From: Nereocystis luetkeana
Taxonomy: Eukaryota; Sar; Phaeophyceae; Laminariales; Laminariaceae
Reading direction: 5' to 3'
Assembly: GCA_031213475.1 (NCBI GenBank)
Contig: JARUPZ010000018.1
Span: 806,001 to 870,000 of the forward strand
DNA length: 64,000 nucleotides
Position numbers and translations under genes: made by a program. Positions within the stretch are counted from its first letter, which is position 1. Every line of letters begins with the position of its first letter. Positions 4,801 through 64,000 of the stretch are shown piece after piece. The notes under the pieces were generated by a model. It ran no database searches. It was given only the letters and a program-made list of their open reading frames with translations, and was not told the DNA's origin.

Positions 4801-7800
4801 CGGGTATTCGGAACGAAAACGAAAACCAAATCAAACCTGTTGCTAGGTACCGGTTCTGTCCCTATGTGATAAGCTTCGAATCAATTAACCAGGGGGGGGG
4901 GGGGCGTACTCATTTGTTGCTTGCCTTAGTCATTTGACTATTGACCACGCATCCCTTTCGAGACGGAGCGGGGGGGGGTGTACTCGATAGGAGAGATGTA
5001 CTCGATCTCATGCATGGCCGTAGTCGCTGTGGGGGGGTAAGTGCAAGAGCTGCTTTGCACGAACGCGTCTCATGTGCTTCTGCCATTCTGCCCCGCCTCT
5101 CCCGCGGATATGACCTGGAGCCTCTTCCGCGGCTAGACTTGGAGTCTCTCCCGCGGCTAGACCTGGAGCGTATCTCGCGGCTCGACGTTAATCGCCGGCA
5201 GACCTGGTGGGGAAGGAATCTACCGTCGAACACGCAGCCGCTGCTGGGGTAGTCGAGGGCGACAAAAGGGTTTCCGACCGATCCACTCAAGAGCCACATG
5301 AAGAAGACGCTGCTGTTTATTAGTGATGCGAAGGAGTTAGATACCCGCAGCTAAACGTCCGAATACTGCCGGTACGTGATCGCGGCGGCATTACGTCACC
5401 CGTTCGAGCTCAGCGAGCAGGAGGATAAACCACGCGGCCCACGGGATGGAGGGGGGGCGGGATGCAGAGGGTTGCGTTGCCCTTATCCGGAACACGATAC
5501 GTAGGAGCATGGGGTAAAAATAATAACTGACGTCTCTGACGGAATTAACATGCGCAAAGGGTGAATTTGTTTCTCGATCTAATGGGTATGGATCAGCCTC
5601 GCTCGCACCATAAACAGTTTTGTTGACGGTGCGTCCTCGGTAGACAGCTGGACAAAATAACGTTCCGTGTTTCATCCCGCCTCGATCAAAGCGCCAGCGA
5701 GCGCGCAGGTGTTCGCCCGGGCTCTCTAATCAAGTACAGTCGGAATGGCCGTCGGAACACGCACACGGGGGCTACCGAGCAAACGGGCGGGACCCGGGAT
5801 ATTGACACGCCGGAGACCCCCCCCCCCCCCCCGCCGCCCCCTGCAAATCATGCGACCACCAAAAACTGATGAAAAGGTTTCCTCGTCCGTCCCCAACTAT
5901 CCGCGACAAACGCATTGCCTGCTGGATGGATGCATGTGCCATGCAGAAGGGCTTATCGAAACCCCCCATTCACAACACAGCGGCACACAAGGCCCAAACA
6001 CACGGAAAACACGCCTGAATATTCCACTACCGTACATCACACACACTACACAAAAACTGCTCCCAAGGGGACACAGATAAAGGGGGGGGGGTCCGCAGCA
6101 CGCAACCGGGAGCAACAGCAACAGCTAGACCCCCACAACAGACAGAAACACCCATACACCCATGCGAAAGCGCACGCGCAAGCACAGCACAGGCCTACTT
6201 ATATACATACATACCTGGATGGGGCGATCGCCCATGTTGGTGACGCTGAGCGAAAGCGTGGCCCTGCCCTTGTTGATTTCGATCTCTTCCCCGTCGGGCG
6301 TCAGCACCTCGCCGAGGCAGATGCTCCTCTCAGAGTTGCCGAACACCTCGAGGTCGGGAACCGGCAAAAAGGAGCCCTGGAAATAAAAATGACGCCCGCA
6401 GCGGGGAAGGGTGGGGGAGGGGCAGCCGAGGGGGGGGGGTGGTACGCAGTCCGACACGAGCTTATGGCCAAGCAGGGTTTTTTTCTTGGAGGGGGTTTGC
6501 ATGGGCAGGACGGCGTTTCTACGGTCAGGTTTTGAGTCTGGTTGCCGGTCAGGACGGCGACGAGGAGCGGGTGCCGACGTGGGTCGTGGTGCGTGCACAG
6601 GGTTTTCTGCTGATGAGAATGAGCGCAAACACAGCACAAGCTACTGTAGATCAAGCGTGCCACGGGAAAACCACGAGGGGAAAAAAGAAGAAAACGAGCG
6701 TGCCATCAACGGTGGGAAAGAAAAAAACACCCCATCACCAGTACGGATGCCGTCTTCCTCAACCTCTCACAAACGAGCGAGACGACCAAGGTATTTTTTG
6801 CTTCGCCATGAGGGTCGACCGCAGACCGATCACCCGAAAGCTCAACCCATCCCCAATGCAGCGACCATCATCCTGCTCCTTGTCACGCAGTACCAGGTAC
6901 TTCTTGGGTTTCCACATTTTTTCACCCCGCGCCTACCTGCAGCGCGAGGGCGAGGTCTCCGTCCTCCCTGCAGATGGGATGGGCAATGGTCACGAGCTTC
7001 GTGCCGTCGGGGAACGTGCCTTCTACCTGCACCTCGCGGAGTTCCGCTGCTACTCCGGCCATCACCTGCCTCGTCAGCCACACGGCGTGGAAATAAAACA
7101 ATGGTAGTGGTCGGCAGATACAACGCGCAGAAAAAGAAAGAAGAAAAAGTATCCTGCGAAGAAACGCGTCTGCCTGCCTGGTGTGCGGCGCGAGTATGAA
7201 AAAAACTGCACACCATGCACATGTCGGCGGTGCTTAAAATAGTTTGGTGCGGTCGGTTCAACCGCACAGCACGAAGCGAGAGAGCACTTGCCCGCATGGT
7301 GTGTGTTTCTTAGCCGCATCCTGTCCTCGCGAGCCACGAGCTAGTTGCGCACATCAATATGAGTGGGTGCAGGGGGCAATGCTCGCGCTAGCGGTGGCGG
7401 CAGACCCCTCACCGGGACGAAACTGTCTTAACACCATATCCACAACAACAAACCACATGCACACACCGAAAATCCCACACAGAAAACCCACCGACAAAAC
7501 GACAAAGTGCACGATAAGCGCGCCTCTAAGCGTGAGCGACGATTGCCGTACGTCTTGAATCCTATCACTTTTCTCTCTCTCTATTTCCATCTCTCTCTCT
7601 TTCTCTCTCTCTCTTTCTCTCCACCTACCCTTGATTCATTCCACGGTAAGGGTTGGCCTTTTTGCCTTCTGAGGCAACATTTTCTGACCGGTTGACCTCT
7701 TCAAGTGAGCAACTAGTAGTATACCAGTTACTATTACGGGGGACCATAGTTAACAGGACCTACGGCAAACTCAAAAACCTACCAGATATTTATTCACCTA

Positions 7801-14632: not shown

Positions 14633-17169
14633 ACTTGTGTCATGCATGGCCGTGGTCGGATGATCGTAGACCCTCGCATCTTTACAATGCCGGGGACATA
14701 GCACGTCGGGAGCGGGGGGGCGGGGGGGGAGGCAGAAATAAAAATATGGTGCGAATACCGTGGATATGTCACGAAAAAAATTGTTGGTATACCAGTAGGG
14801 CGCACGGTTGTGCGACGTGTAGGGTAAGCCGTTTTTGGGTTCACGGACCGGACCACTCAAAGGTGAGTTTGTTTTTCTGTTACTGCTTCTTAACGCCCCC
14901 CCCCCCCCCCCCCCCAATCTATGCTCATTCGAAATATGTCGAGCAGCCTTTATTTTATGAAGAACGTAGAAGGCTTGCGCCATTAAGAGGGTCAGTGGGG
15001 CGGAGGCGTTGACAATTATCGATAGCACAAATATATATATATCGGCTAGTTATGTAGACCCCCCCCCCCCCCTTTTCCCCTTGGGCTGATACAGGCGAAA
15101 TACAACCATTCTGGAAGTTTCCGGCACGTTTGGATACATTTCTTAGGCATGCAACCTTCTCTCGCCCCCCCCCCACCTCCCCCCTCATTATCGGGTTTCT
15201 TGGTGTCCCCCCCCTTCAATTCTCGGCTTGTTATTTCCTGATCCCCCCCCCCCCCCCCCGCCCTCCGCCCCCCGCCTCGTCTCTTCATAATATTCCCGCC
15301 CTCCGCCCTTTCCACATAATGTTTATTGGTGCCCCCCGTCTCCTCCTCCTCTCTACTATTTTTCCTTGCCGCCCCTTTCACCCGTCCACATCTTCCTTCT
15401 CGGTATGTATCCCTCGTCCACATCACGTTAATGCCCAACCCCTTGACGCCACATCCATGCCCCCCCCCCTTCCCCCCCTCCTCGACCGCTCTCGAACACA
15501 GCCCGAACCAGCAGTGCTTTGCGTCGGCGATAACGGCCTGCGCCAGGGCCCTCGACCCGAGGGCGGCGCTGCGGTTGCTCGCGGACATGCGCAAGGACGG
15601 CGTACCTCCCAACGAAGTGGTGCTCAACGCCGCTGTGGACGCTTGCGGAAAGGTGAGGCCGCGCCTCGCGATAAGAGACGAGACAGATGTTTTGCCTCCT
15701 CCTCCTCCTCCTTCTCCTCCTCCTCCTCCTCCTCCTCCTCCTCCTCCCCCTCCTCCTCCTCCTCCTCCTCCCCCTTGTCCTACTCCTCCTCCTCCTCCTC
15801 CTCCTCCTCCTCCTCCTCCTCCTCCTCCTCCTCCTCCTCCTCTTCCTCCTCCTCCTCCCCCTCCTCTTCCTCGTCCTCCTCCCCCTCGTCCTCCTCCTCC
15901 TCCTCCTCCTCCTCCTTCTCCTCCTCCTCCTCCCTCCCTCCCTCTCATCCTCCTCCTCCTCCTTCCCTCCCCCTCGTCCTCCTCCTCCTCCCCCCCCCCC
16001 CCCTCGTCCTCCCCGATTCATCCGTAATAAGGGGTTCTGAGCTCCAAAGTCCTATTTTATATTCAAGTAGTACCCGACTTGGGCCATCACATGGAAAGGG
16101 GTCCCCTGACGTTATGATGCCGTCAACATTAGAAACCCGGGTTCGCTTCGTTGTACTATTGATAGTACGGGGAGGGGGGGGGGGCATATAGAGTAATCCG
16201 AACCCCCGATGGACACCAAAACCATGCACCCCCCCCAGGTTTACGTACCACTTCTGGTTCTGATTGCTATTAGTGCTGTACATGCGTGCCCCCGGTATAT
16301 AGCTGGGAAATGGTTTAAGCAATCCCTTTATCACGGGAGACCATAGTAAATAGGACCAAATATTGTTAGTAATAATAGCGATATACCTAGTTTTTTGTGT
16401 GTACCGTAGGTCCTATTTACCATGGCCCCCGTAATAGTACTGCCCTATATACTCATACTGTACAAAAACCTGATACGGTCGGTAGTGGTTATATACTATT
16501 TCGGAGCGTCGCAGTAATCAGGACCATCATCTATACCAGGTACAAAAAATGATATAATACAGTACTTTCACGGAGCATATTTGGCTCTGATTACAATGTT
16601 CCCCCGTAATAGTAATAACTAGTAAAATATACTTTGTCGTTTCTTTTCTTCTTTTGTTTTGTTTGTCGTTGTTGTCGTGTCTTTTCTTCTTTTTTTTGTT
16701 CGTTTGTTGTTGTTTGAACAATAAGGGATGTTCGTTGTACAGGCAAGTACCGTACGACATCGGCGCAACCACGACACGAGCAGTCGTACACTGCTGTAGC
16801 ATCACAAGAAACGCTCGAGGCTAAATGGTGCCCTCGAACAAGCGTAGTTTCACTCCAAACGGCTCAACAATAGAGCGCCTGTCAATAGGGCGTACACGCA
16901 AAATATGGTGTAGCATGTACTCAAGGAGAAGTGTAATTTCATTTGATTTGCCCCCACAATTGGAGCGCAGTCCTTAAGGGCTACGGTAGAGTGGTTACGC
17001 CTCTTTTCTATGTAATGCCTTGCTTCGCTTGTCGGCAGGGAGGCGCACCCGACGAAGCCGTCCGGCTTCTCTACGGGATGGAGGCCGCGTACGGAGTAAA
17101 GCCGGACAACGTCTCCTTCAACTCCGCCATTTCTGGCCTCGCCAGAGCGGGCCGGCCTCGGGAGGCGAG
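11282..17169 (+). CDS. Pentatricopeptide-repeat (PPR) protein with RGG-rich N-terminal region (3' end lost near gap)
   Basis: PPR proteins bind organellar RNA one base per repeat. Exons by frame and splice sites: 11282-11839, 12869-12981, 13133-13289, 14269-14558, 15502-15652, 17039-17169 (1400 nt, about 466 residues). The start is the first ATG in the exon-1 frame. Exon 1 has a Ser/Thr-containing N-terminus that could be an organellar presequence, then a long RGG/GRG-rich stretch. Exons 2-6 give PPR-type helical pairs, for example SIAISALGRMGKWQKAVEVL, YAAAINACGKAGRP, AVALLAEMPSRRVTPDVVCF, ASAITACARALDPRAALRLL, LNAAVDACGKGGAPDEAVRL and SFNSAISGLARAGRPREA. An Ala/Gly/Asp-rich insert interrupts the exon-4 repeats. 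The last visible donor (after 17169) splits a codon, so at least one more exon is needed; it probably lies in or next to the N gap. RNA target and organelle are unknown. Confidence 0.88.
11955..12066. mobile_element. MITE, same family, PPR intron 1
   Basis: GGGGGATCATAGTAATCAGG at one end, CCTGATTGATTAGTATGTTC then CCCCCGTCATAA at the other. Confidence 0.65.
12193..12234. repeat. (CAG)n microsatellite
   Basis: About 13 CAG units in PPR intron 1. Confidence 0.9.
14588..14712 (-). repeat. Poly(C)-tailed retroposon 3' fragment
   Basis: A G-run of about 30 is followed by GTACTTGTGTCATGCATGGC and the ATCTTTACAATGCCGGGGAC segment. It lies in a PPR intron. Confidence 0.65.
15690..16015. repeat. 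(CTC)n-rich tract
   Basis: Over 300 bp of CTC/CCT triplets with scattered changes just downstream of PPR exon 5. It produces artificial open frames of poly-Pro, poly-Leu, poly-Ser and poly-Gly/Arg. Confidence 0.9.
16329..16437. mobile_element. MITE, same family, PPR intron 5
   Basis: TATCACGGGAGACCATAGTA ... CCATGGCCCCCGTAATAG around a core with CCAAATATTG and TAGGTCCTATTTA. Confidence 0.75.
16490..16614. mobile_element. MITE, diverged copy, PPR intron 5
   Basis: CAGTAATCAGGACCATC ... TCTGATTACAATGTTCCCCC then GTAATAG; adjacent to the copy at 16329. Confidence 0.6.
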
Positions 17170-17261: not shown

Positions 17262-17475
17262 TCGGGGGGGGGGGGGGGGGGGGGCGCTTTTTTACTCGTT
17301 TGTTGCTTGCCTTAGTCATTCGACCATTCACCACGCGTCCTTTCCGAGACCTACTCCGAATAGATACACCTCCAACAGTTACAGTTGGGCGCTCATTTCG
17401 TTTTTTCCTTATATTACATTTTGAAAAAATGCTTGTGGTATCCCCTTCCTGTTTTGGCTTTCGTGGCCTATGAGG
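17262..17475 (-). mobile_element. LINE 3'-end fragment with poly(C) tail
   Basis: About 200 bp similar to 47260-47440 (TTGCTTGCCTTAGTCATT, CACCTCCAACA, GGGCGCTCATT), preceded on the plus strand by a long G-run at 17263-17284. It sits just after PPR exon 6. Confidence 0.75.
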
Positions 17476-17884: not shown

Positions 17885-19012
17885 AACTAAATTAGCTCAT
17901 TGAAGCTGTCATCCATGTGCAAGTCCGAACCACAAGCGGTTCTTGGTAGGATGCAGCTCACCCTTCATACGACTCGCCGAACACCTCACGGCGCTTCGCG
18001 CTTGGCACAAGCAATATCTGTCTATTAATAGTCGGTGAAAGCCCGACGCGCTCCGTCCCGCCATTGTAGGGATGTGAGGGCCTGTGGTCATACGACTACG
18101 GCCATGCATGATTCGAGTGCACGCCCCCCCCCCCCTCCCCTGGCCTGCGCTTGGCGCAAGGAATGCCTGCCTGGTCGGTGAAAACTCGACGTGCTCCATC
18201 CCGGCATTGTAGGGATGCGAGGGTCTAAGGTCGTACGACTACGGCCATGCATGATATGGAGTACACCCCCCCATCTCTCCTATCGAGTACACCCCTCCCC
18301 CCCCCCCCGCTGCCCTTCCGTCGTGTACACCTGCCTGCCTCTTTTTCGCCTGCCCGGGTGATATCTCGCTCTACTGCTTGTACTCGTAGTGCCTTACGGG
18401 GTGATGCACTGTTTGTATGATGCTTGTCTCTCGGGGTGGAATCTCTCGGCAGCAGTTTCCCCGCGTCTTTTCTGGGTCATGCCCGAGTTACATTTTAAAC
18501 GCACCAATGCCCTTCTTGGCCTGTGCGCCTTCTTTTTTGGTCCTGTCCTTGTGTTTACGGCTCTTTCTATTGTTGCTATTGCTGCTGCTGCTGCCTGCTG
18601 CTGNNNNNNNNNNNNNNNNNNNNNNNNNNNNNNNNNNNNNNNNNNNNNNNNNNNNNNNNNNNNNNNNNNNNNNNNNNNNNNNNNNNNNNNNNNNNNNNNN
18701 NNNCCTCATGGCGCTTCGCGCTTTGGTTCAAGCAATGCCTGCCCGGTCGGTGAAAACCCGACGTGCTCCGTCCCGACATTGTAGGGACGCGAGGGCCTAT
18801 GGTCATACGACTACGGCCATGCATGATAAAAGGGTACCCCCCCCCCCCCCCCCCCCCCCCATTCCCCCCCCTTGGTTCAAGCAATGTCTGCCTGGTCGGT
18901 GAAAACCCGACGTGCTCCGTCCCGGCATCGTAGGGATGCGAGGGTCTATGGTCATACGACTACGGCCAAGCATGATATCGAGTACCCCCCCCCCCCCCCC
19001 CCCCTCCCCATC
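17885..19012 (+). repeat. Array of four poly(C)-tailed retroposon pieces around the assembly gap
   Basis: Sense pieces at about 17885-18136, 18137-18310, 18704-18860 and 18861-19012, each ending at a C-run after CATGCATGATnnnGnGTAC-like sequence. The array probably explains why assembly failed here. I see no PPR or FAAL exon between 17170 and 19049. Confidence 0.7.
18604..18703. other. Assembly gap of exactly 100 N
   Basis: A conventional placeholder of unknown true size. The missing 3' exons of both the PPR gene and the FAAL should lie in or beside it. Confidence 0.95.
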
Positions 19013-19049: not shown

Positions 19050-38490
<19,441 letters not shown>

Positions 38491-45097: not shown

Positions 45098-48000
45098 TCA
45101 CGCCTTCCCTGCAACTTGCGCCTCTCTCTCCTCCCTCTTGGCCCGCTCCCTGGCCATTCTCTTCTCCATCACCCTCTGGAACATCTCGTTCTTCCTCACG
45201 AACTCCTCCTCCCTCTCCTTTGTGCCCTCGTGGAGGCTCTTCCACAGCCCGCCCTTCTTCTCCTCAGGCACCGGCACCACTCGCGCCGACCGTCCCCCCC
45301 CACCACCTCTCCCGCCCCCTGTAACGGCCGCCGCCGCCGCCGCCATGCCGGCAGAAAGCGTTTCGGGAGCTTCCCCGACGATGTCCTTGCTCGTCAGCAT
45401 GCCGCCCATACCACCGCCGCCGGCGGCGCCGGCCACGATAGGAGCGATCTGGCGCACCAAACCCCCCAGCCCCCGTCCCCTATCCGCCTCTTCCCTCTCC
45501 CGCACGGCGTTGATCTTAGAGCGGAAGTTGCCCACCACGGCGTTGGAATCTTTGCCGACGTGCGGCCGCAGAACGTCGCGGAAGTCGCTGACGCCCTGTA
45601 TGTAACAGGGAACGGCGACGGCGGGGGGGGATTGGGGGGGGGGGGGGAGGGCGGGGCGTCCCAAAAGCGAAAGGGAGGGGGCGGGGGGGGGGAGAGGGAG
45701 GGGGTCAGAATAACGGCGGGGAGGAGGGAGTGCGGGGGGGGGGGGGGTGTACTCGGTAGGAGAGATGTACTCGATCTCATGCATGGCCGTAGTCGTATGG
45801 CCATAGACCCTCGCATCCCTACAATGCCGGGACGGAGCATGTCGGGTTTTCACCGACCAGGCAGACATTGCTTGCACCAAGCGCGAAGCGCCGTGGGGTG
45901 TCCGACGAGTCGCATGAAGGGTGAGCTGCATCCTACTAAGAACCGCTTTTGACGCGGACTTTCTTGCATATGGACGACAGCTTCAATGAGTTGATTTAAT
46001 TTCCGGTGTAGGCATTTCCAGAGACAGCAATGGGAGTACTATGTAACTGCCTCTTGGGTGCCTTACCTTGAACACTACGTGATACGATCATTCCCAATTG
46101 TGCGGAGTAAAGGTTATTTACCTCGCACAAATCATCGAACTCGACAACCAGTTGTGGGCGACCGCCAAAAAAACAAAACAAAAAAAACGGTACTCTGGTT
46201 ATCTAGCTCACGTAGTGAGCGGCATTTTTTACAGTGTCGTTGCCAATCGACACCAACCCAACCTATATAAAATACCTCGCACAAATGATCTAACTCGACA
46301 ACCAGCTGTGGGCGACCGCCAAAACAAAAGAAAAGAAACAAAACGGTACCCTGGTTGTCTAGCTCACGTAGTGAGCGGCATGTTTTACAGTGTCGTTGCC
46401 AACCGACGCAACCCAACCTATGTAAATAGCGTGGGGGTGTACTCGATAGGAGATATGTACTCGATCTTATGCATGGCCGTAGTCGTATGACCATAGACCC
46501 TCGCATCCCTACAATGCCGGGACGGAGCATGTCGGGTTTTCACCGACTAGGCAGACACTGCTTGCACCAGGCGCGAAGCGCCGTGAGGTGTCTGGCGTGG
46601 GGGGGGGGTCTTCATGTCGAGTACGGCCGTGGTCGTATGACCATAGACCCTCGCATCCCTACAATGCCGGGGCGGAGCACGTCGGGTTTTCACCGACCAG
46701 GGAGACATTGCTTGCACCAAGCGCCAAGCGCCGTCAGGTGTTAGGCGAGTCGCATGAGGGGTGAGCTGCATCTTACCTAGAACCGCCTGTGACGCGAACT
46801 TGCAACGGACGACAGATTCGAATTAATTGTTTTTCCTGGTGTGGTCACTTCCAGAGACAGGAATGAGTATACGACGTATCTGCCTCGTGAGTGCCTTCCC
46901 ATACACACTACGTGATACGATCGTCCGCTTCGTGCGGAGTGAAGGCTACCCACCGTGCACAAAATATCTAACGCTACCGCTAGCTATGGTGACCACCAAA
47001 ACAAAAACGGTACCCTGGTTGTCCAGCTCACGCAGTGAGAGGCATGTTGGACAGCGTCACCGCCAACCGACGCCGACCCAACTTATTATTGAAATGGTAT
47101 ATATATACGAGGTATATATACAGGGAGGAGAGCGGGCGTTCCAGAAGCGAAGGGGAGGGGAGGGGGTCAGAATAACGGCGATGAGGAGGAGGGAGGGGGG
47201 GGGTGTACTCGATAGGAGAGATGTACTCGATCTCATGCATGGCCGAAGTCGTGGGGGGGCGTATTCATTTTGTTGCTTGCCTTAGTCATTTGACCGTTGA
47301 CCACGCATCCCTTTTGAGACGAAGCACCGTTCCCATTCCTAATAGAGACACCTCCAACATTTGGGCGCTCATTACGTTGTTTCCATATATAATATTTTTC
47401 CCACTCTTCTCCCGTTCCTGTTTCGCCGTCTGTGGCCACCATCGATCTCCTAGGAAGGCGATCGTTTTCTCGCTGCTACCTAGTGTATCAAACTCCTCCA
47501 CGTCACATTGGTCTAATTCCCTCATCTCTTCTAACACACCTCGTTCCTCCTTGTGCATTTCACATTCTCCTACTATGTTAGTTCTACTCTCTATTGCTTT
47601 GCCACATGGGCACAGCTGTGCATCTTCTTCCTCTCCCTTCCGGCTACTGGTATACCTCTTTCTTCTTTCTGGGCAGGTCCAGGTCACCTACACGGAAATC
47701 GCAGTTTCAGCGTCCCCGTGAAGTCCATTGGGCCGCGCAAATACGTGTGCATTCCTATGCCTTCGCTCAATCCCCCGTATCATCTTTGAGTGTTTCTCCG
47801 AGTTCACCTTGTTTCAAAGCGCTGGCCTTTCCCTTGTTTCTATACTTTCTTCTACTTCTGCCTTGTACCTCCCAGACTTCTCTGCGGACATCGACTCTTC
47901 TTGGTTTCCTCCTATACCCCTCCATACCTTCTCAACTTACGCCATCCCACCTTATTCCAGCTCGCCCTTTCGTTACTTTCTCCAATACAGCTACAGTATG

Positions 48001-51000
48001 TTAACTATGGCTGGGAACCTCTTTTTCGGCATGTTACTCACTTTATATTCCCATTTCAACTTTCTCATGTCTGTATTTTGTCTTGAATGGGTGCATTCCC
48101 AGTTCTGCCCTTACTACCGTATTTCTAGTCGTACTTGAACATCTTGGTGTTTTTTTAGCTGCTGTCATCTCTACTGCTTTCAACTGTTTTACGAGTTTCG
48201 CGTTCCCTTCCCATACTTCTCCTGCATTTTCTAGCTTTGGTACTGTCACATTCATCAGGGTACATCTCTTGATCCTAGTGTCGAGGTGAGAGTCGGTTAG
48301 AATAACCTCCATCTTGCCTGCGTGTGATTTACCCTTTCCTACTACCTGGTACCTGGTATGTGTGTATCCCAAGAGCATTCCTTTGATATCTTTGCGCCAA
48401 GGTACGTATACTGGTCTACGATCGACAATTCATCTTATCCCCACTTCCGACTGGAATTTACCGGGTTCACCTTATCTTCGGTACATACAACTAATGAGCA
48501 ATTCTTGACATTCGCCGTCACCCTCCATTTCCTAGCGTATTCTAGCGCCTTCTCTATTGTTTCTGCAAACCTTCAGGCGTTTCAGATATCCCCACGAAAT
48601 CATCCGCAAACATCAATCCTGACACCGCATCTTCCCCCACCGTGACTCCCTGCCTTGCTGCTTTGACTGCTACTATCAGATCGTTAATACCTGGTACCTG
48701 GTACATATTTGTATCTTGAATAGATGAGGTGACAACATACATCCCAGTGCAACTTCTTGTAAAATATCAATATCAAAGGAGGGGGGGGGGGGGGGGGGGG
48801 GGGTCCAGAAGGGGAGGGGAGAGGATGGGGCGTGGGGTCAGAGGAACGATGTTCCGGAAGAGGAGGGGAGAGTATGAGGCATGGGGTCAGAGAAACGGCG
48901 GGGGGGGGGGGGGTCTTGCTTCCACAAGCGTGCCGTCGGTACCATACTCGTAGACCCACGTACACCAAGAAAATCACGAAGTACGGTGATGACGGCGCTA
49001 TATCTATTTATACGTATACATGAGTTGCAGCATGGCTGCAAAAAAGAAGCAGGAAAACCACAAACGAAAGAAACGGAGAAGAGAAAAAAAACAGCACAGG
49101 CAGCAAGCAAGTACAAGGGCGATCGGCTACGTATGTAGACAGCGGCCCTCGCTCTTATTCCGGAAGATGTGACGGGAGAACGGGAGGGACGTCTGGTAAC
49201 CCTTGTTACCGCTGCCAAAATGATCCCACGAAAAAATCCAAGCAGTCGGCCACTCAACAACACGCAGCCCTTGCAGAAATATGAGATTCGACGAAACCTT
49301 CGATCTCACGGCAGAGGCGTCTTTTTCTAATTATACAAAACTTGGGGTGGGCTTCTAAAAGGGATCAAATCAGGGTGTAAGGCCCCACCTGCGTTGCGAG
49401 AGCCCTGAGGAAGGGGGCCAGGTCGTACAGGACTGTGTCGGCCGTGGGGTCCGAGCCGTCCTCAAGCGAAAACGTCTTCACCTTGATGGCATTTTCCGGC
49501 TGGGGGGGGGGTGGGGGGGGGGAGTGGCGGCGGCAGAGATAGACGGCCGCGGCGGAAAAGGTGCTTGTTTCATCACTCACGATGCGTGTGGTCAGTCAGT
49601 CGTCAGACGTCGTCAGCAGCAACAACGACCGCATCAAGAATAGGGAGGGCAAGGGAACGGGCCACCGACAATCAAACGGTCGATGGCAGCCCCTAACGTC
49701 TGACCGTTAGCCACTGCCTTCAATGAAGGAGAGTATTCCTTGTGCATATATACGTACTGGTACATGTTGTTCTTCGTTTCTTAAGGCCGCAAAACATCAT
49801 CTACATGCACGTACATACCTGGCATGTAGTAGGCACACTTCTTCGCGCAACGAAACACACTGCTGTATCATAGCATCAACGACATGAGTTAGAGAAGCTA
49901 TTAATACTTCGTATGGCGAAATCCTTGACCTCACAGCTGAAGTTTTAAAGTTATGAATATATCGTGCAGAGACGAAAATAGGAACGCGACCAGGGGGTGT
50001 TGAAACCTCGAGAGGACTCGCGGCCGGCTCTTTAGATGGCCACGCGTCAAGCTATCCGGTACAAAATGTTTTCTAACGTAGTCAGTCGATCAGTCCGCCA
50101 CTACTGCAGTACGTCATTTCATACTGGCTCGGCTGTGTGAACGGAAAGAAGAAAGCGGCAAAACTCTTGCTTCTTTTACACAGTGCTATCGCATGATGTT
50201 GAGCCGCCGCTAGCAGCCTAGAGCAGCAGCACGAACAGTAGCACCACCAGCAGCAGCCCTGAACAACCATCCCCGTAAAAAAAACGCCTACAGGCACGGC
50301 GGCCGCCGAACTATCTTGCCTCACCCCGCCCCATCCCACCCCCCCCCCACACACCTGCATCGAAATGCAGTCGGCGTTGTCGTCGACAATGACGACCTGC
50401 TCCAGCGGTCGGTTGAGCGCGGAGAGGTCCTTGACGTGCTTGCCGTCGATGTACCTCGTCCCGTCACGGTAAACCCTCTGGCTCACGGCACCGAGTGGGT
50501 CCATCTTGGTAATCCACTGTAATTAAACACCGAAATCAACGTTGGGTGGGAGCCGGGAGGGTGTCGCGGGGCGGGAGGGGAGGGGGTGTAAGGAAGGGAG
50601 GAAGAAGGCGGCGGCGGCGGCGGCCGTGCCTGTGGCCGCGGCAAGATTAGGGTTGATCAATACACCTCGGCACCTTCGTCCGTTCCCTTGCAAGTTTCTG
50701 GCTCCAAGAAAAAACAGCGTGCGCGGCAGGTAAGCGATGCAGCACACCTGCACTCCCCCCCCCCCCCCCCCCTAACCCACGCCAACTCTATATAACGCCT
50801 ACGCCTCCCCCATCTCCCGTATAGTTGCTGTTGCTACAGAGTGTCGTTCGTGCCAGCTGCCACTTGCCGCGTTGACGAAAAATCTAGAACATGTCACATC
50901 CTATTTGAGCAAAAATAGCACCAAGATACAAGATAACTACGTAGCCCTCCCGCGGCACACACAACCCCTCCCCCCGCCGGCACCCTCCCCTCCTCGCATG

Positions 51001-55736: not shown

Positions 55737-58700
55737 ATGTCCACCCTCGGCGGGTGTGCCGGTCCGGGCGCCTCGACAGGCAAGGCAGCCGCTGGCAAAA
55801 AGACGTTCGACCGAGAAATAAAAATTCATGGAGACGCGAGGATCGTGAGGCATTCATGGAGAAAGCACACCAGGGGGTGGTACCTGACCTCCACCCTTCT
55901 CTGGCGAGGCGGGACGACCTCTGGCGTGAAGGAGGGGAGTGTGGTGCCAGGCAGCGATGAGGCCCTCCTCGAGAGGGCGTCCTGCCACGCCGAAGCTATC
56001 AAGACGCGCGCCGAAAAATGTCGAACCAACGTTTTTTCTCCTGCTGCTGCTGTTCGGAACAAGCGCAAGACAGCAGATACGGTACTCTCCAAGCCGATGG
56101 CGGTGGCGCTTGCTGGCGGGACAAGGGGTAACGCAGCCGCTAGGACTCAAGCTCGGCAAGAATCCGTGAGTGTTTGTTCGTTGGTGCTCAGGGTTGGGCT
56201 TGTTGGCAGTCGTGGTTGTACCATCTTGCTCCCTCCTCTCGCTGCAGCGTGACCTAATTTTGCGATTTTGTAGAACAAAAATTGATCTGCTGTGGGCATA
56301 AATGTAAGATTTTTTTTGTCTTCATATCAATATGTGAATGAACCTTATATTTTCGGCCAGAAGAGCGTACGTACGAGCGGCACGCGTGCTGCGATTTTGT
56401 TCGACAAAAATTGATCTGCTGTGGGCATAAATGTAAGGATTTTTTGTCTTCACATCAATATGTGAACGAACCTTATATTTTCGGCCAGAGCGTACGTACG
56501 AGCGGCACGCGTGCTGGTACGTACGAGTGCTCGTCGTGCACACTATTAATATGTTTTTTATGTTGCACTCTATATACAAGTAAATAGAGTGGGTACGTAC
56601 TACACATCAGCTACAAAAATGTGCGCGATATACGCACTCTATTCACAAGTGATATACCGGTATATCAGCTTTGAGTTAATACAGTGTTTACCTCTCATGT
56701 ACGCTCTCAAACACCCTCACAGGAACTGGCGAAGCGTCGCGCTGACTTGCTGCAGGAGGTAGAGGCAGATCCTGTGCTCAAGGAGCAGGTACGATCATCG
56801 CGGGGGGATGTGGCAACACAAGAGGCGGCAGAGGCGGCAGAGGCGGCGGCAGAGGCGGCGGCAAAGGCGGCACTCAACGAGGTCAACATGCGCGAGATCG
56901 GCACCTCGTTGGAGGCGTTGCGCGGTAACTGTTACACCGAGCGCGGCCGTGTTGCGTATCAGACTGTGCTTGCGGCCGTAGCTGGAACAGGGGAGCACTC
57001 GACTGATGCCGAAGGTCTGAATGACGCCGGGGTTACGAAGAGGGCGGAGAGCTATGGGGTCCGGTTCGAAACCTTCAAGGATGCGCAGGATCGGATGAAG
57101 CGCGCGCGACACGACCTTGCCCCAGACGAGGCGTTCGAGAGTGGTCAGTACGTCTACGATCAACGCAAGAAGCGATCCGACTGCACGCATCCTGGGTGTC
57201 TGGATCTTGCGAGGAGATTCTGGCACAGCGACGATGTTTCCCGCGCGACGGGAAATTCAGGTGACCCTTTCAATAGTTTGGTACACTCTGTTTTCAAGAG
57301 CTGTCCAGTATCTCGCGTTGTAGAGCTCTTTGTCATGTTTATTCCACGTTGTTGACTGCTTGTTCGAGCTGCCGTCATGTTTCCCATAGCGTAGAACTGT
57401 GTTAGTTTCCCTATGCTGTACTGCGCACGAGTGCCGCACCAGCTGGCATCCTCTTCTGCGTACTCCTGCCGTGCGAGCGAGAGCGATAATTTCACTGAAC
57501 GAACAACATGATTTCTGCCCGCCCCTCTTCAGGACCCAGGGATATGTGGCGCGCGTCGAAGGCGAAAGATGCAGAGACCCATCCCCGGAGGCAGCTCTTT
57601 GTGAACGGCGACGACGTCTACAAGATGTTCCTCGGGTGGACGGAGTACCTGGCTTTCAAGGAGGAGGTGTTAAAAGAAGACAGCAGCTTTGCAGACCCTG
57701 CTAAATCAACCTTCCTGAAAACGCGGTGTCCGTGCTTAGGTGGGTCGCCGTATGAGCGTCGGTACCACGCATCTGTTTTCAGTAGCACCGTATCCACAAC
57801 CTTTTATGTATATATAGCGCCCATTATATAGAGAGTGCGACAGCATAGTCCAGCACCCTGACGGTTTCGACCTTCCCGCCCTACCCGTTACCTTTTACCT
57901 GCCTTTCGCCGCCTCCGCGTTCGCTTTTCCACGCCCTCAGTTGAGCCTACAGCGTTGCAGTGTGCGTGCCAGATTCATACACAACAGGGGTTTTACCTCG
58001 AGTCGTTGGGGTGGTTGTGGGGGTCTATCCATTCTGATTGCGAGTGCGACTGCAGCTGGTGCGACCGAGAAGGCTGTAAGAAGTGGCGCGACATGTCGAA
58101 AGATTTGCCGTCATTTTCGCAAGCGCTGGCATGTGCGAAGGTCAACTTGCTGAGCGGTGACCCGGACGGTGGGTTCGTGTTCATGGGAAGGAAGCCCGCA
58201 TGCAATGCGATGGAGTGCTCGGACTGTGGTTTTGGGAAGCCTAACGGTATCCCTACTAACTGCAAGGCCCTGCTGCGCTCCGCAGACAGGCATGTAGGGT
58301 GGATCCGCTTCGAGGACCAAACCATGGAAAACGGACAGGTGCACAAGAAGCAACAGATACCGGTGGTGGGAAAGCTCGGCGAGCTTTGGGACGAGTTCAT
58401 GAAGCACTCGGCGAAGGTGACCTGCGCGATCTGATTTATGAGTGGAGTGCTGTCTTGTATATATATAGTATGTTAAGGGCTTCATAATTGTGTCCTGCGT
58501 CGGGGTAGCCGTTTAGCGAGCACTTCATGGGAATAACCACTGCGCGTAATCTTTGTTGTTGGCGGAAGCCTGAACACACATTCTCCTGTATTTGTTCGTT
58601 GTCCGCCCCGCTGTCTACAACCTCTTTTTACAGTACATGGAGCATCACGGCATCGCGAAGTGGCAACGCCAGGCCCACAAGATGTGTATTGGCAACTCTT

Positions 58701-59762
58701 AAGTGGGGTCACTTGTTGGTGGAGACAGACTTTATTGAGAAGTATAGGCACCTCGCTCGCGTTATTATGACCTGCGGAACGGCGCCCACCACGACCATGA
58801 TGGTTGCCCTCGTCCACCACAGCCCCGCTTTAGACGGGCGACACGAGACGGACGCGTGGATCTTTCTCTCCGCTGACCCCAACCATGACTTCGATTTCCA
58901 CATCTTCGCGATGACCGAGATTTTTGAGCACTACATGACCGGGGAGGGATCAGCCGCTACGAAGCGCCCCGTGGCCGATGGAGCTGGTGTGGCTGCAGGT
59001 AGTGTCGCCGGCGCAGAGACCCCTAGAGTACACATGTTCACGGACGGGTGCGCAAAGCAGTACAAAGGGAAGCGCAATTTTCAGGCGGTGGCGATGAGCA
59101 AGGGGGCGCTTGGAGTCGTTATAGACCACAACTTTGCTGCCACTTCGCATTTTAAGGGCGCACACGACGGGATCGGGGGGTTGGCCAAGAGCATGATGCG
59201 CAGGGCAGAGACTCAGGGCCGGCGCATCCACGACACACAATCTGCCTACGACTTCCTTCGCATCTACGCCGAGGGGAGTGGTACGAAGAATGCCGGCGCT
59301 CTTGCGGATTGGTCCGCCTACAAGATTTCGCGCTACCACGTCAAGCTTGTGGGGATGAAGGAGATTCCTCGCCCGCCCGTTGACTTGGAAGGCATCACCG
59401 GTAGTGCAAAGTTGTATCAGTTTATGGGGGGGGTTGATCAGGATAGGTGCCCTGTGGTAGAGTGCGGTATGGTGCACGCAGAGAACGCAAGTAATAACGA
59501 GGAGGCATTGGCAGGGGAGCGGGTGATAACCGCGAGACCGTACCAACAGGACCCGAGAGCGTGGGTAATCCCATCAACCGTAAGGAGGGCGTGGAAGCTC
59601 CGGGTTCGCAAGGCATCGTGTTATTGTTCGGCGTGCAGGAATGAGGCGTTCAATGATTGCAAGGTAGCGAGCATTTATCCGGGCTTGGTTGGCGCGGTCA
59701 GGACAGTAGCGGTGAAGGAGAAGGCGACTGTCACGTCGGGTGCAACCCAAACCGATGAATAA
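55737..59762 (+). CDS. Transposase-like protein, copy A, with in-frame stop at a TCT-TAA-G site
   Basis: Exons 55737-56165, 56723-57260, 57533-57739, 57941-58416, 58634-59762 join in phase; 925 residues if one base is skipped at 58700. The ATG chosen opens the first exon. Exon 2 has an Ala/Glu-rich coiled region and a CTHPGC segment; exon 4 has a Cys cluster (CECDCSWCDREGC) and CNAMECSDCGFG, probably zinc-binding. Exon 5 reads YMEHHGIAKWQRQAHKM, stops at TAA (58700-58702), and continues in the +1 frame as KWGHLLVETDFIEKYRH, HMFTDGCAKQYKGKRNF and ATSHFKGAHDGIGG. The WQ...DF...DG..KQYK...HDGIGG order resembles DDE-type transposon proteins I know from animal genomes, but I cannot name the superfamily. 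A second copy lies opposite. Expression cannot be judged. Confidence 0.75.
56270..56520 (+). repeat. Tandem duplication of ~128 bp in intron 1 of transposase copy A
   Basis: The segment beginning ACAAAAATTGATCTGCTG occurs at about 56274 and again at about 56402. Both copies continue through TATTTTCGGCCAG and GCGTACGTACGAGCGGCACG with small indels. Confidence 0.85.
58697..58703 (+). other. Frame interruption TCT-TAA-G in transposase exon 5, possible +1 recoding site
   Basis: The spliced frame arrives as GGC AAC TCT TAA. Skipping T58700 continues as AAG TGG GGT CAC into the conserved VETDF segment. The layout (sense codon, stop, one skipped base) resembles +1 sites such as antizyme UCC-UGA-U. 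It may equally be an inactivating indel. The same site is present in copy B (62170-62176). Confidence 0.45.
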
Positions 59763-59814
59763 ACACCGTTTAACGCACGTTCTCGTGTTCCTGCAGGCAG
59801 AACAAGGCACTTGT

Positions 59815-60330
59815 CGGCGGTGTAAAATTTCAGCAGCCTCTTACGTTTGTACGGCACAAACTGGGTTCGGCAGGGCCTCAAAAACCCTATAATATCGTGT
59901 TTCCCCTGGGGGGGGGATGATAACATATCGTCCCCTACTTCACCTTTCAGCTTGTTTATGGATCGCATGACTATACTGTGGTAGGGAATCAAATTCCGGC
60001 CGTCCCCTAAAGTTGTACGTCACAAAACAAACAGCATTTTTTTTTTTTCGCCTAAAAATCGCTGTATACCCATTGTTCAACCGGGGGGGGGATGATAACA
60101 TACCATCCCCTGCTTCGCTTTATTCCATATTTTTATACATGCGAAAAAAAATGTCGGCCAACAATTTCCGCCTATTCCTACTTTTGTGCGACTCAAAACG
60201 AGCTCTAAATAGCCTGATTAACGCCGTATCCCCGTTTTATCCCCGGGGGGGGATGAAAAAACGCTGTCCCCTATTTCGTCTTTTCCATACATTTAGTAGT
60301 ATAAATACTCAAAATCGCTGAAAACCAACG
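59815..60330 (+). repeat. Three diverged subterminal repeats (~170 bp each) in transposon tail, copy A
   Basis: Three successive blocks each carry a TTGTACG/TTGTGCG-type word with CACAAA or CTCAAA, then a run of 8-9 G followed by ATGATAACAT (or ATGAAAAAAC) and GTCCCCTA-like sequence. The G-runs lie near 59909, 60084 and 60248. The mirror set is at 60543-61058. Subterminal repeats of this kind often bind transposase; no gene is visible in 59763-60419. Confidence 0.6.
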
Positions 60331-60419
60331 TTTCCAGTGTGCAAATTAAAAATTGACAAGCGCAATCGAATGCATACACCAAAAGGTTACTTGTGGTGAA
60401 CCACCGAGGCTTTAAAGTT

Positions 60420-60453: not shown

Positions 60454-63400
60454 AACTTTAAAGCCTCAGTGGTTCACCACAAGTAACCTTTTGGTGTATG
60501 CATTCGATTGCGCTTGTCAATTTTTAATTTGCACACTGGAAACGTTGGTTTTCAGCGATTTTGAGTATTTATACTACTAAATGTATGGAAAAGACGAAAT
60601 AGGGGACAGCGTTTTTTCATCCCCCCCCGGGGATAAAACGGGGATACGGCGTTAATCAGGCTATTTAGAGCTCGTTTTGAGTCGCACAAAAGTAGGAATA
60701 GGCGGAAATTGTTGGCCGACATTTTTTTTCGCATGTATAAAAATATGGAATAAAGCGAAGCAGGGGATGGTATGTTATCATCCCCCCCCCGGTTGAACAA
60801 TGGGTATACAGCGATTTTTAGGCGAAAAAAAAAAAATGCTGTTTGTTTTGTGACGTACAACTTTAGGGGACGGCCGGAATTTGATTCCCTACCACAGTAT
60901 AGTCATGCGATCCATAAACAAGCTGAAAGGTGAAGTAGGGGACGATATGTTATCATCCCCCCCCCAGGGGAAACACGATATTATAGGGTTTTTGAGGCCC
61001 TGCCGAGCCCAGTTTGTGCCGTACAAACGTAAGAGGCTGCTGAAATTTTACACCGCCGACAAGTGCCTTGTTCTGCCTGCAGGAACACGAGAACGTGCGT
61101 TAAACGGTGTTTATTCATCGGTTTGGGTTGCACCCGACGTGACAGTCGCCTTCTCCTTCACCGCTACTGTCCTGACCGCGCCAACCAAGCCCGGATAAAT
61201 GCTCGCTACCTTGCAATCATTGAACGCCTCATTCCTGCACGCCGAACAATAACACGATGCCTTGCGAACCCGGAGCTTCCACGCCCTCCTTACGGTTGAT
61301 GGGATTACCCACGCTCTCGGGTCCTGTTGGTACGGTCTCGCGGTTATCACCCGCTCCCCTGCCAATGCCTCCTCGTTATTACTTGCGTTCTCTGCGTGCA
61401 CCATACCGCACTCTACCACAGGGCACCTATCCTGATCAACCCCCCCCATAAACTGATACAACTTTGCACTACCGGTGATGCCTTCCAAGTCAACGGGCGG
61501 GCGAGGAATCTCCTTCATCCCCACAAGCTTGACGTGGTAGCGCGAAATCTTGTAGGCGGACCAATCCGCAAGAGCGCCGGCATTCTTCGTACCACTCCCC
61601 TCGGCGTAGATGCGAAGGAAGTCGTAGGCAGATTGTGTGTCGTGGATGCGCCGGCCCTGAGTCTCTGCCCTGCGCATCATGCTCTTGGCCAACCCCCCGA
61701 TCCCGTCGTGTGCGCCCTTAAAATGCGAAGTGGCAGCAAAGTTGTGGTCTATAACGACTCCAAGCGCCCCCTTGCTCATCGCCACCGCCTGAAAATTGCG
61801 CTTCCCTTTGTACTGCTTTGCGCACCCGTCCGTGAACATGTGTACTCTAGGGGTCTCTGCGCCGGCGACACTACCTGCAGCCACACCAGCTCCATCGGCC
61901 ACGGGGCGCTTCGTAGCGGCTGATCCCTCCCCGGTCATGTAGTGCTCAAAAATCTCGGTCATCGCGAAGATGTGGAAATCGAAGTCATGGTTGGGGTCAG
62001 CGGAGAGAAAGATCCACGCGTCCGTCTCGTGTCGCCCGTCTAAAGCGGGGCTGTGGTGGACGAGGGCAACCATCATGGTCGTGGTGGGCGCCGTTCCGCA
62101 GGTCATAATAACGCGAGCGAGGTGCCTATACTTCTCAATAAAGTCTGTCTCCACCAACAAGTGACCCCACTTAAGAGTTGCCAATACACATCTTGTGGGC
62201 CTGGCGTTGCCACTTCGCGATGCCGTGATGCTCCATGTACTGTAAAAAGAGGTTGTAGACAGCGGGGCGGACAACGAACAAATACAGGAGAATGTGTGTT
62301 CAGGCTTCCGCCAACAACAAAGATTACGCGCAGTGGTTATTCCCATGAAGTGCTCGCTAAACGGCTACCCCGACGCAGGACACAATTATGAAGCCCTTAA
62401 CATACTATATATATACAAGACAGCACTCCACTCATAAATCAGATCGCGCAGGTCACCTTCGCCGAGTGCTTCATGAACTCGTCCCAAAGCTCGCCGAGCT
62501 TTCCCACCACCGGTATCTGTTGCTTCTTGTGCACCTGTCCGTTTTCCATGGTTTGGTCCTCGAAGCGGATCCACCCTACATGCCTGTCTGCGGAGCGCAG
62601 CAGGGCCTTGCAGTTAGTAGGGATACCGTTAGGCTTCCCAAAACCACAGTCCGAGCACTCCATCGCATTGCATGCGGGCTTCCTTCCCATGAACACGAAC
62701 CCACCGTCCGGGTCACCGCTCAGCAAGTTGACCTTCGCACATGCCAGCGCTTGCGAAAATGACGGCAAATCTTTCGACATGTCGCGCCACTTCTTACAGC
62801 CTTCTCGGTCGCACCAGCTGCAGTCGCACTCGCAATCAGAATGGATAGACCCCCACAACCACCCCAACGACTCGAGGTAAAACCCCTGTTGTGTATGAAT
62901 CTGGCACGCACACTGCAACGCTGTAGGCTCAACTGAGGGCGTGGAAAAGCGAACGCGGAGGCGGCGAAAGGCAGGTAAAAGGTAACGGGTAGGGCGGGAA
63001 GGTCGAAACCGTCAGGGTGCTGGACTATGCTGTCGCACTCTCTATATAATGGGCGCTATATATACATAAAAGGTTGTGGATACGGTGCTACTGAAAACAG
63101 ATGCGTGGTACCGACGCTCATACGGCGACCCACCTAAGCACGGACACCGCGTTTTCAGGAAGGTTGATTTAGCAGGGTCTGCAAAGCTGCTGTCTTCTTT
63201 TAACACCTCCTCCTTGAAAGCCAGGTACTCCGTCCACCCGAGGAACATCTTGTAGACGTCGTCGCCGTTCACAAAGAGCTGCCTCCGGGGATGGGTCTCT
63301 GCATCTTTCGCCTTCGACGCGCGCCACATATCCCTGGGTCCTGAAGAGGGGCGGGCAGAAATCATGTTGTTCGTTCAGTGAAATTATCGCTCTCGCTCGC

Positions 63401-64000
63401 ACGGCAGGAGTACGCAGAAGAGGATGCCAGCTGGTGCGGCACTCGTGCGCAGTACAGCATAGGGAAACTAACACAGTTCTACGCTATGGGAAACATGACG
63501 GCAGCTCGAACAAGCAGTCAACAACGTGGAATAAACATGACAAAGAGCTCTACAACGCGAGATACTGGACAGCTCTTGAAAACAGAGTGTACCAAACTAT
63601 TGAAAGGGTCACCTGAATTTCCCGTCGCGCGGGAAACATCGTCGCTGTGCCAGAATCTCCTCGCAAGATCCAGACACCCAGGATGCGTGCAGTCGGATCG
63701 CTTCTTGCGTTGATCGTAGACGTACTGACCACTCTCGAACGCCTCGTCTGGGGCAAGGTCGTGTCGCGCGCGCTTCATCCGATCCTGCGCATCCTTGAAG
63801 GTTTCGAACCGGACCCCATAGCTCTCCGCCCTCTTCGTAACCCCGGCGTCATTCAGACCTTCGGCATCAGTCGAGTGCTCCCCTGTTCCAGCTACGGCCG
63901 CAAGCACAGTCTGATACGCAACACGGCCGCGCTCGGTGTAACAGTTACCGCGCAACGCCTCCAACGAGGTGCCGATCTCGCGCATGTTGACCTCGTTGAG
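60454..64000 (-). mobile_element. Right arm of giant inverted repeat (transposon copy B)
   Basis: Reverse complement of 56873-60419, still continuing at the window end, so the full arm is longer than 3.5 kb. The arm tip at the centre is AACTTTAAAGCCTC. Confidence 0.9.
61111..64000 (-). CDS. Transposase-like protein, copy B (5' part beyond window)
   Basis: This mirrors copy A. Visible exons 62239-61111, 62932-62457, 63340-63134 and part of 64000-63613. The protein sequence is the same as in copy A over the shared length, including the TCT-TAA-G interruption (62176-62170). The first exon and part of the second lie past base 64000. Confidence 0.75.

Follow-up and report, generated by a model that had tools for sequence, protein, structure and literature searches.

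How do a long and a short retroposon come to lie, time after time, between runs of C on the same strand? The question is raised by a stretch of 64,000 nucleotides from the brown alga Nereocystis luetkeana, positions 806001-870000 of contig JARUPZ010000018.1 (C18) in a 465-Mb assembly of 1987 contigs, hereafter called the window, in which a long interspersed nuclear element (LINE) occurs together with a ~530-bp non-autonomous retroposon that we name RP. A sequence-only reading of the window had taken the C-run for a poly(C) tail common to both elements. A C-run does stand at their 3' ends, but it is not simply a tail, since a same-strand C-run is also found upstream of the 5' junction. The reading we propose, to which we give a probability of roughly 0.75 on the evidence of occupied sites, is that LINE and RP would both enter homopolymer tracts of C in such a way that the C strand is the sense strand.

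C-runs on both sides of the insertions

The assembly search with the LINE region of the window (47260-48773) gave 6940 first-look candidates and that with an RP copy 4736, 40 being scored in each case; the window LINE copy is 82-86% identical to most of the other scored LINE matches. The material examined comprised the window, 20 genome regions of 10 kb around LINE matches (labelled L010, L013, L018 and so on), and an evenly placed sample of 20 stretches of 2 kb (40 kb). A C-run was defined as six or more C's, the 5' run ending at most 25 nt upstream of the element. The first count covered 264 kb and, on the 5' side, 5'-truncated copies only, so that seven LINE copies starting at reference 1 were excluded, one of which (L010) does have a 5' C-run. 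A cleaned count covered 304 kb (the window, the 20 LINE regions and the 20 evenly placed stretches) and used 75 of 78 copies, those less than 70 nt from the end of a stretch or with N in the flank being omitted. Copies of at least 92% identity are called young.

In the first count, 32/36 LINE and 35/43 RP copies having a 3' end carry a C-run there, in agreement with the sequence-only reading, and a G-run was found at none of these 3' ends. Of the 12 exceptions, several have a shorter run of 4-5 C's; in others the copy is diverged or the match breaks off before the tail; and some have no run at all, as at window position 8313. On the 5' side, a same-strand C-run precedes 19/29 LINE and 23/32 RP copies and a G-run 0/29 and 1/32, while a C-run is met at 2.2% of 20,000 random positions. 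The cleaned count gives, for young copies, a 5' run in 21/23 LINE and 14/15 RP and a 3' run in 23/23 and 13/15; for copies of all ages the figures are 27/38 and 26/37 on the 5' side and 35/38 and 30/37 on the 3' side, with 2.7% (5') and 1.8% (3') at 20,000 random positions. The two young LINE copies devoid of a 5' run are those of L025, which starts inside a C8, and L023. Among young copies, and less among older ones, the repeat is thus present in one orientation on both sides of most insertions. A repeat-family control gave 0/33, a weak comparison in which the ends are those of 80-nt-piece matches rather than certified ends and a palindromic family is counted twice.

The order of the bases around the insertions is informative as to which came first. 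In L013 it reads (C)13 TCGCACT, the LINE, then (C)10 TCGCACT CGCACC. The bases repeated after both runs are GCCGCTC in L018, TTCTATG in L024, TGCACA in L016, ACCCCT in L020 and, for an RP, TCTGAA in L022, to which AGTAGATG (L017) and CCCCACCCCTGTTC (L019) are added partly by eye. Four or more equal bases follow both runs in 8 of the 48 two-sided copies, against 1.05 expected when the 3' flanks are permuted (0/10,000), and three or more in 10, against 2.09 (0/10,000); the summed match over the 48 copies is 76, against 30.5 (1/10,000). It had been proposed to look for target-site duplications immediately outside the C-run. Where duplicated bases can be read, they come after a C-run on either side, the duplicated target being the C-run plus 3-10 further bases. 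The equality of the bases after both runs implies that in these copies the C-run was there before the insertion and that the element entered near its 3' edge.

The elements of the window on which the argument draws are the following.

48781-48803, minus strand: C23 upstream of the 5' junction of the LINE copy below, TCCTTTG lying between
47260-48773, minus strand: 5'-truncated LINE copy, last ~1.5 kb, ending ...GCAAGCAACAAAATGAATACG; 85.6% identity to the reference copy
47253-47259, minus strand: C7 at the 3' end of this LINE copy
47204-47252, minus strand: 49-nt 5'-truncated RP tail between two C-runs
47195-47203, minus strand: C9 at the 3' end of this RP tail
46625-47086, minus strand: older RP copy (reference 12-496)
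46438-46597, minus strand: 5'-truncated RP (371-533) between two RP pieces, with (C)10ACGC on the 5' side and CCCCCACGC on the 3' side
45748-46274, minus strand: RP copy, near full length (reference 4-533), its 5' end joined to an RP fragment without a C-run
45734-45747, minus strand: C14 at the 3' end of this RP copy
25993-26525, plus strand: RP reference copy, full length, 533 nt, with C19 on each side (25974-25992, 26526-26544)
24248-24314, plus strand: LINE insertion consisting of the shared tail only, 67 nt; C9 upstream, A and C14 downstream
4905-4969, minus strand: LINE insertion consisting of the shared tail only, 65 nt; C9 upstream, C13 downstream
17293-17454, minus strand: older truncated LINE copy, ~160 nt; C21 (17264-17284) near the 3' end, 5' C-run absent
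29155-29343, plus strand: older truncated LINE copy, ~190 nt; C12 near the 3' end, 5' C-run absent

Each of the five LINE tails of the window has, as had been noticed, a C-run starting at most 14 nt from the matched end. The near full-length RP copy at 45748-46274 is part of a dimer on the minus strand, in which RP 7-163 (46273-46426) is fused to RP 4-533 with no C-run between them, possibly by a template switch.

The C-tails had also been held to explain many of the G/C homopolymers of the window, and this proved true of about a third. The window contains 85 C/G runs of at least 8, against 4.06 expected from dinucleotide shuffles (36 A/T runs, against 2.05), and a detected LINE or RP end is abutted by 28 of the 85 on the sense strand and by 1 on the antisense strand; in the evenly placed 40 kb, 8/28 C/G runs lie at an element end on the sense strand and none on the antisense strand. 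The majority of the C/G runs of the window is not accounted for by detected elements. The evenly placed sample gave 10 blast matches, one of them an RP/LINE 5' cross-match, which scales very roughly to ~100,000 fragments genome-wide.

The C-tract as proposed target, and rival explanations

Several observations weigh against insertion into C-tracts. Beyond the 10 copies mentioned above, the two-sided copies are equal in their C's alone; among them is the window LINE at 47260-48773, where ACGACTT after the 3' run does not match TCCTTTG, which leaves no duplication beyond the C's. Such copies are compatible with C-tract insertion and not decisive. A looser test, in which the match may lie at any place in the 3' flank, reaches significance for a core of at least 6 non-C bases (13/76 against 5.7; 0/300), but not for a core of at least 4 (29 against 25.7; 70/300), and weak for a core of at least 7 (7 against 3.7; 16/300). 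The run lengths of the two sides are uncorrelated (r = 0.10), which is what instability of homopolymers or an addition of C's from RNA would produce; it cannot therefore be demonstrated that the run itself was duplicated, and RNA may be the source of part of the 3' run. The looser test, the run-length correlation and the repeat-family control all included four faulty entries, corrected in the cleaned count: an RP cross-matched as LINE (L017 4572), a LINE joined in one chain with an RP start (L026 3384), and two LINEs whose chains were interrupted within the element (L018, L022). Furthermore, copies below 92% identity often have no 5' run (it is present in 6/15 LINE and 12/22 RP, the 3' run in 12/15 and 17/22), the sole young RP missing its 5' run, at 45748-46274, is joined to another RP without any C-run, and the 20 LINE-bearing regions were chosen by similarity.

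The alternative closest to the sequence-only reading is that the element itself brings the C-run as a poly(C) tail and inserts without sequence specificity, as in RTE elements with 3' simple repeats. It would account for the C-runs at most 3' ends, for the uncorrelated run lengths and for the majority of two-sided copies without any match beyond the C's, and the cited passages of PMC2887409 describe RTE insertion as apparently not sequence-specific, with the repeat sitting between the two duplications. That arrangement is unlike the one seen here. A mere tail would give no reason for C's before the element; the same-strand C-runs ahead of the 5' junctions speak strongly against this explanation, which does not predict the equal bases after both runs either, and we consider it unlikely. 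One could also derive the 5' C-runs from end-to-end template jumping, in which the reverse transcriptase moves to the C-rich 3' end of another RNA and builds element-(C)n-element chains. Chains of this kind are common in the window, and a recognisable element tail stands ahead of at least 17/48 of the 5' runs. Upstream of the 5' run, however, no LINE or RP tail was recognised in 15/20 LINE and 16/28 RP copies, that is in 31/48, an upper bound because some look like decayed or interrupted tails (L015 5962, L012 9029, L023 9067, window 18871 and 19947); the targets of insertion are not only old element tails. Moreover, in several copies the target bases between run and element are found again behind the 3' run, and an inner junction of a chain, at the RP 46438-46597, seems to carry a duplication ((C)nACGC on both sides). 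Template jumping as the source of the 5' runs is accordingly rated improbable, somewhat below the element-borne tail. Least probable of all, and in our view hardly credible, is that C-runs are recombination or slippage hot spots at which old element pieces are shuffled between tracts at the DNA level: the general excess of homopolymers, A/T as well as C/G, and the shortness of many fragments would suit it, but the copies retain the 3' end and differ in where they begin (a pattern counted only among copies with a 3' end), equal bases extend beyond the run, and the young copies are 94.5-98% identical to each other.

The ends common to LINE and RP

The sequence-only reading had aligned the 3' ends of LINE and RP through a list of words from GGATGCG to GAGTAC; the list was right, and the similarity is longer than supposed. 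The last 66 nt of the LINE align with the last 74 nt of RP, starting at GTGCTCCGTC and remaining collinear to the final GAGTAC. With majority sequences of 30 LINE tails and of 17 long-tailed and 10 short-tailed RP copies, the alignment scores are 46 and 44, whereas the best of 5000 dinucleotide shuffles reach 26 and 25; since none attains the observed score, chance is excluded. When the RP tail is compared with 80-nt windows of the LINE (step 10), the top five are the last five windows of the LINE. That LINE and RP share their 3' tail is, in our judgement, close to certain.

The RP 3' ends have two forms, one terminating in GATATCGAGTACA and the other with 18 extra bases and a second GAGTACA end. 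In the RP at window 18149 a C7 separates the two tail ends, suggesting read-through of a first C-run to a second end as the origin of the longer tail. When five diverged copies of the LINE are taken together, the tail differs from the reference at 21/315 sites and the rest of the last 1.5 kb at 349/2708 (p 0.001), a lower divergence that fits selection on the RNA, although the numbers are small; against it, the difference is significant alone in only one of the five (L026) and is absent from the diverged copy at window 29155. Two possible stems of the tail, GUCYC/GGGAU and UGGUC/GACUA, reach 91-95% pairing in LINE and RP alike. No compensatory double change was found in these two stems in either family, and RNAalifold returned no structure for the joint LINE/RP tail alignment; hairpins in the shared tail are thus unproven. 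LINE starts recur at reference 4054-4055 (4/36), where the shared tail begins on its 5' side, and those of RP at reference 399-400 (5/43). The insertions of 65, 67 and 49 nt listed above consist of scarcely anything but that tail, which may strongly arrest the reverse transcriptase or represent the smallest unit able to insert.

The likeness is not restricted to the 3' side. At their 5' ends, LINE and RP are identical at 37/43 nt when the RP majority sequence is used (score 56), and 0/2000 mononucleotide shuffles come near (best 27). An RP start reads, for example, TATTTTATATAGGTTGGGTTGGCGTC..., and the L018 LINE carries GGATGGGTTGGCGTCGAGTGGCGACGACGCTGTAAAACAAGCC ~18 nt past its 5' junction; the single reference RP, compared with L018 by blastn, gives E 4e-7. 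We therefore consider it very probable that LINE and RP share both ends. The RP interior gives only short, mostly T-rich matches to the LINE. As both termini match the LINE and the interior does not, RP is best described as a short element with LINE ends around an interior without recognisable LINE sequence: the two termini are LINE-derived as in elements of the RIME/NARTc type, but the interior is not LINE sequence as it is there.

The suggestion that RP borrows a LINE tail in the manner of a short interspersed nuclear element (SINE) holds for the tail. It does not extend to the other end, where ~45 nt match the LINE and the RNA-gene head of a strict SINE is lacking. Full-length RP against Rfam gave three chance-level matches only (E 0.87-2, far below gathering scores), and ARAGORN (bacterial code) found no tRNA in the window. 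A tRNA, 5S or 7SL head was rejected for want of Rfam or tRNA support, no separate promoter-box search being made. Rfam gave no HDV-like ribozyme for the shared 5' end (E up to 5), a search that divergent ones could escape.

The window holds other features besides. Members of a palindromic family resembling miniature inverted-repeat transposable elements, GGGGGACCATAGT...ACTATGGTCCCCC, lie at 16327-16396, 21029-21098, 25502-25571 and 33111-33180, as well as in L013, where one interrupts an RP copy, and in L019; this family served as a weak control for C-runs. Two arms of 3547 nt, 56873-60419 and 60454-64000, form a perfect inverted repeat around a 34-nt spacer and reach the end of the window; this is either a large palindrome or a fold-back of the assembly. 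A pattern for the EsV-1-7 motif had no match in the DNA examined, a result of little weight. Repeats of 9 and 12 nt form long arrays at 35948-36400, 15650-16000 and 22794-23133, and an assembly gap of 100 N (18604-18703) lies directly before an RP copy.

Coding capacity, proposed mechanism and relatives

Over the parts in common, the LINE copies of the 20 regions show ~94.5-98% identity to two copies of the set. The longest are that of L018 (6.05 kb) and that of L025 (6.8 kb); they differ by a repeated 5' region, which in L025, L018 and L022 consists of partly tandem, diverged repeats and varies by ~0.7 kb between copies; a length of 4.13 kb was rejected as too short, L010 being itself truncated at that point. 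In L015 (plus strand, ~5947-5982), the bases ahead of the LINE 5' end mirror the LINE start (TCTTCCCCATT...AATGGGGAAGA), as in cDNA snap-back. A reverse transcriptase domain is recognised in L018 (RVT_1, E 2.8e-28) and resembles the LINE-1 ORF2p and R2 chains in a PDB search, so that the element is, on its predicted protein, a non-LTR (long terminal repeat) retrotransposon. One frame of L017 likewise contains the reverse transcriptase and, upstream of it, matches Exo_endo_phos_2 (E 1e-5, 25.8 bits, below the cut-off of 27.4) and Exo_endo_phos (E 8e-4, 19.6 bits, below the cut-off of 24.5), and this stretch contains GDFN and TDH strings, which we take to be motifs of such enzymes; the endonuclease is probably of the APE type. 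In ten frames of the window itself, no Pfam family was found above cut-off.

In L018, a frame of 921 residues ends at the stop of ...AACAAATGAGTACG, 5 nt ahead of the C-run; the LINE 3' end is TGA, then GTACG, then the C-run. There is consequently practically no 3' untranslated region (UTR), and the shared tail codes for the C-terminus of the LINE protein. A short 3' UTR is typical of the RTE / RTE-X clade (PMC2887409, in the cited part), and the LINE agrees in this; insertion without sequence specificity, described in the same source, is not what is seen here. From the portion of PMC12477816 consulted, an RTE-X affiliation of the LINE is a lead only.

The mechanism that we propose combines these features. 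The endonuclease would nick the G strand at a C/G tract, and the 3' G-run thus freed would anneal to the element RNA at its C-rich 3' end, so that reverse transcription would begin at ...GAGTAC(G/A); the second strand would be cut 0-10 nt past the tract. Each insertion would leave a C-tract on either side and thereby create new targets, leading to nested chains such as those of the window. RP would move by presenting the 3' recognition sequence of the LINE, and the shared 5' sequence may serve it in transcription or RNA processing. Taken as a whole, the picture would be that of a homopolymer-specific LINE with practically no 3' UTR, in which the target C-run is the primer site and later the tail, the last ~66 nt of the gene are the RNA signal of the reverse transcriptase, and a partner with both LINE termini exploits the machinery, one C-tract becoming two so that landing sites multiply and a sizeable share of the C-tracts of the genome is seeded in this way; to this whole we would give even odds.

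Parts of this picture are familiar from other systems. Human L1 inserts at TTTT/AA, where a homopolymer primer pairs with a homopolymer RNA tail; here the homopolymer is of C/G and not of A/T, and a tract of ~6-31 C is left on the upstream side. UnaL2 and UnaSINE are a LINE/SINE pair with a common tail, presumably the recognition site of the reverse transcriptase, and resemble LINE and RP in this respect, except that here the tail lies within coding sequence and an RNA-gene head was not found.

In the trypanosome pairs ingi/RIME and L1Tc/NARTc, the long and the short element have a common 5' signature, Pr77, as LINE and RP have a common 5' end, and the short element is a truncated long one (PMC4035085, in the passage cited); RP departs from them in its interior, without LINE match beyond the short T-rich stretches, and in that no HDV-like ribozyme was found. 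Like the LINE described here, Dong, which targets (TAA)n, TRAS (both in the cited passages of PMC2887409) and Togen, which targets (TG)n (PMC4640811, likewise in part), insert into simple repeats. LINEs specific for repeats are therefore known, but those named in these passages target multi-base repeats or RNA genes, whereas the target here would be a mononucleotide C tract, used by RP too. No earlier report of a C-tract-targeted LINE was found in an open-access library, a collection that does not take in Repbase or most subscription papers.

The nearest match in anatomy, likened by description and not by sequence, is the brown-algal RTEX-N1_Ec32 of Ectocarpus with its RTEX-1/RTEX-2_Ec32 partners. 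According to the portion of PMC12477816 available to us, it is an element of ~600 bp present in more than 6000 copies, similar to these partners at its 3' end and of undetermined 5' origin; like RP, it is an abundant short non-autonomous element having its 3' end in common with an autonomous LINE. It differs in that no C-tract targeting is described in that portion and that the 5' end of RP matches the 5' end of its LINE. If the reading proposed here is true, it would provide a simple mechanism, in which a G-run primer pairs with a C-rich end of the RNA, and would tie the C/G homopolymers of the genome to retrotransposition. By analogy, the comparison suggests a possible answer to the 5' origin of RTEX-N1_Ec32: an end common with its LINE.

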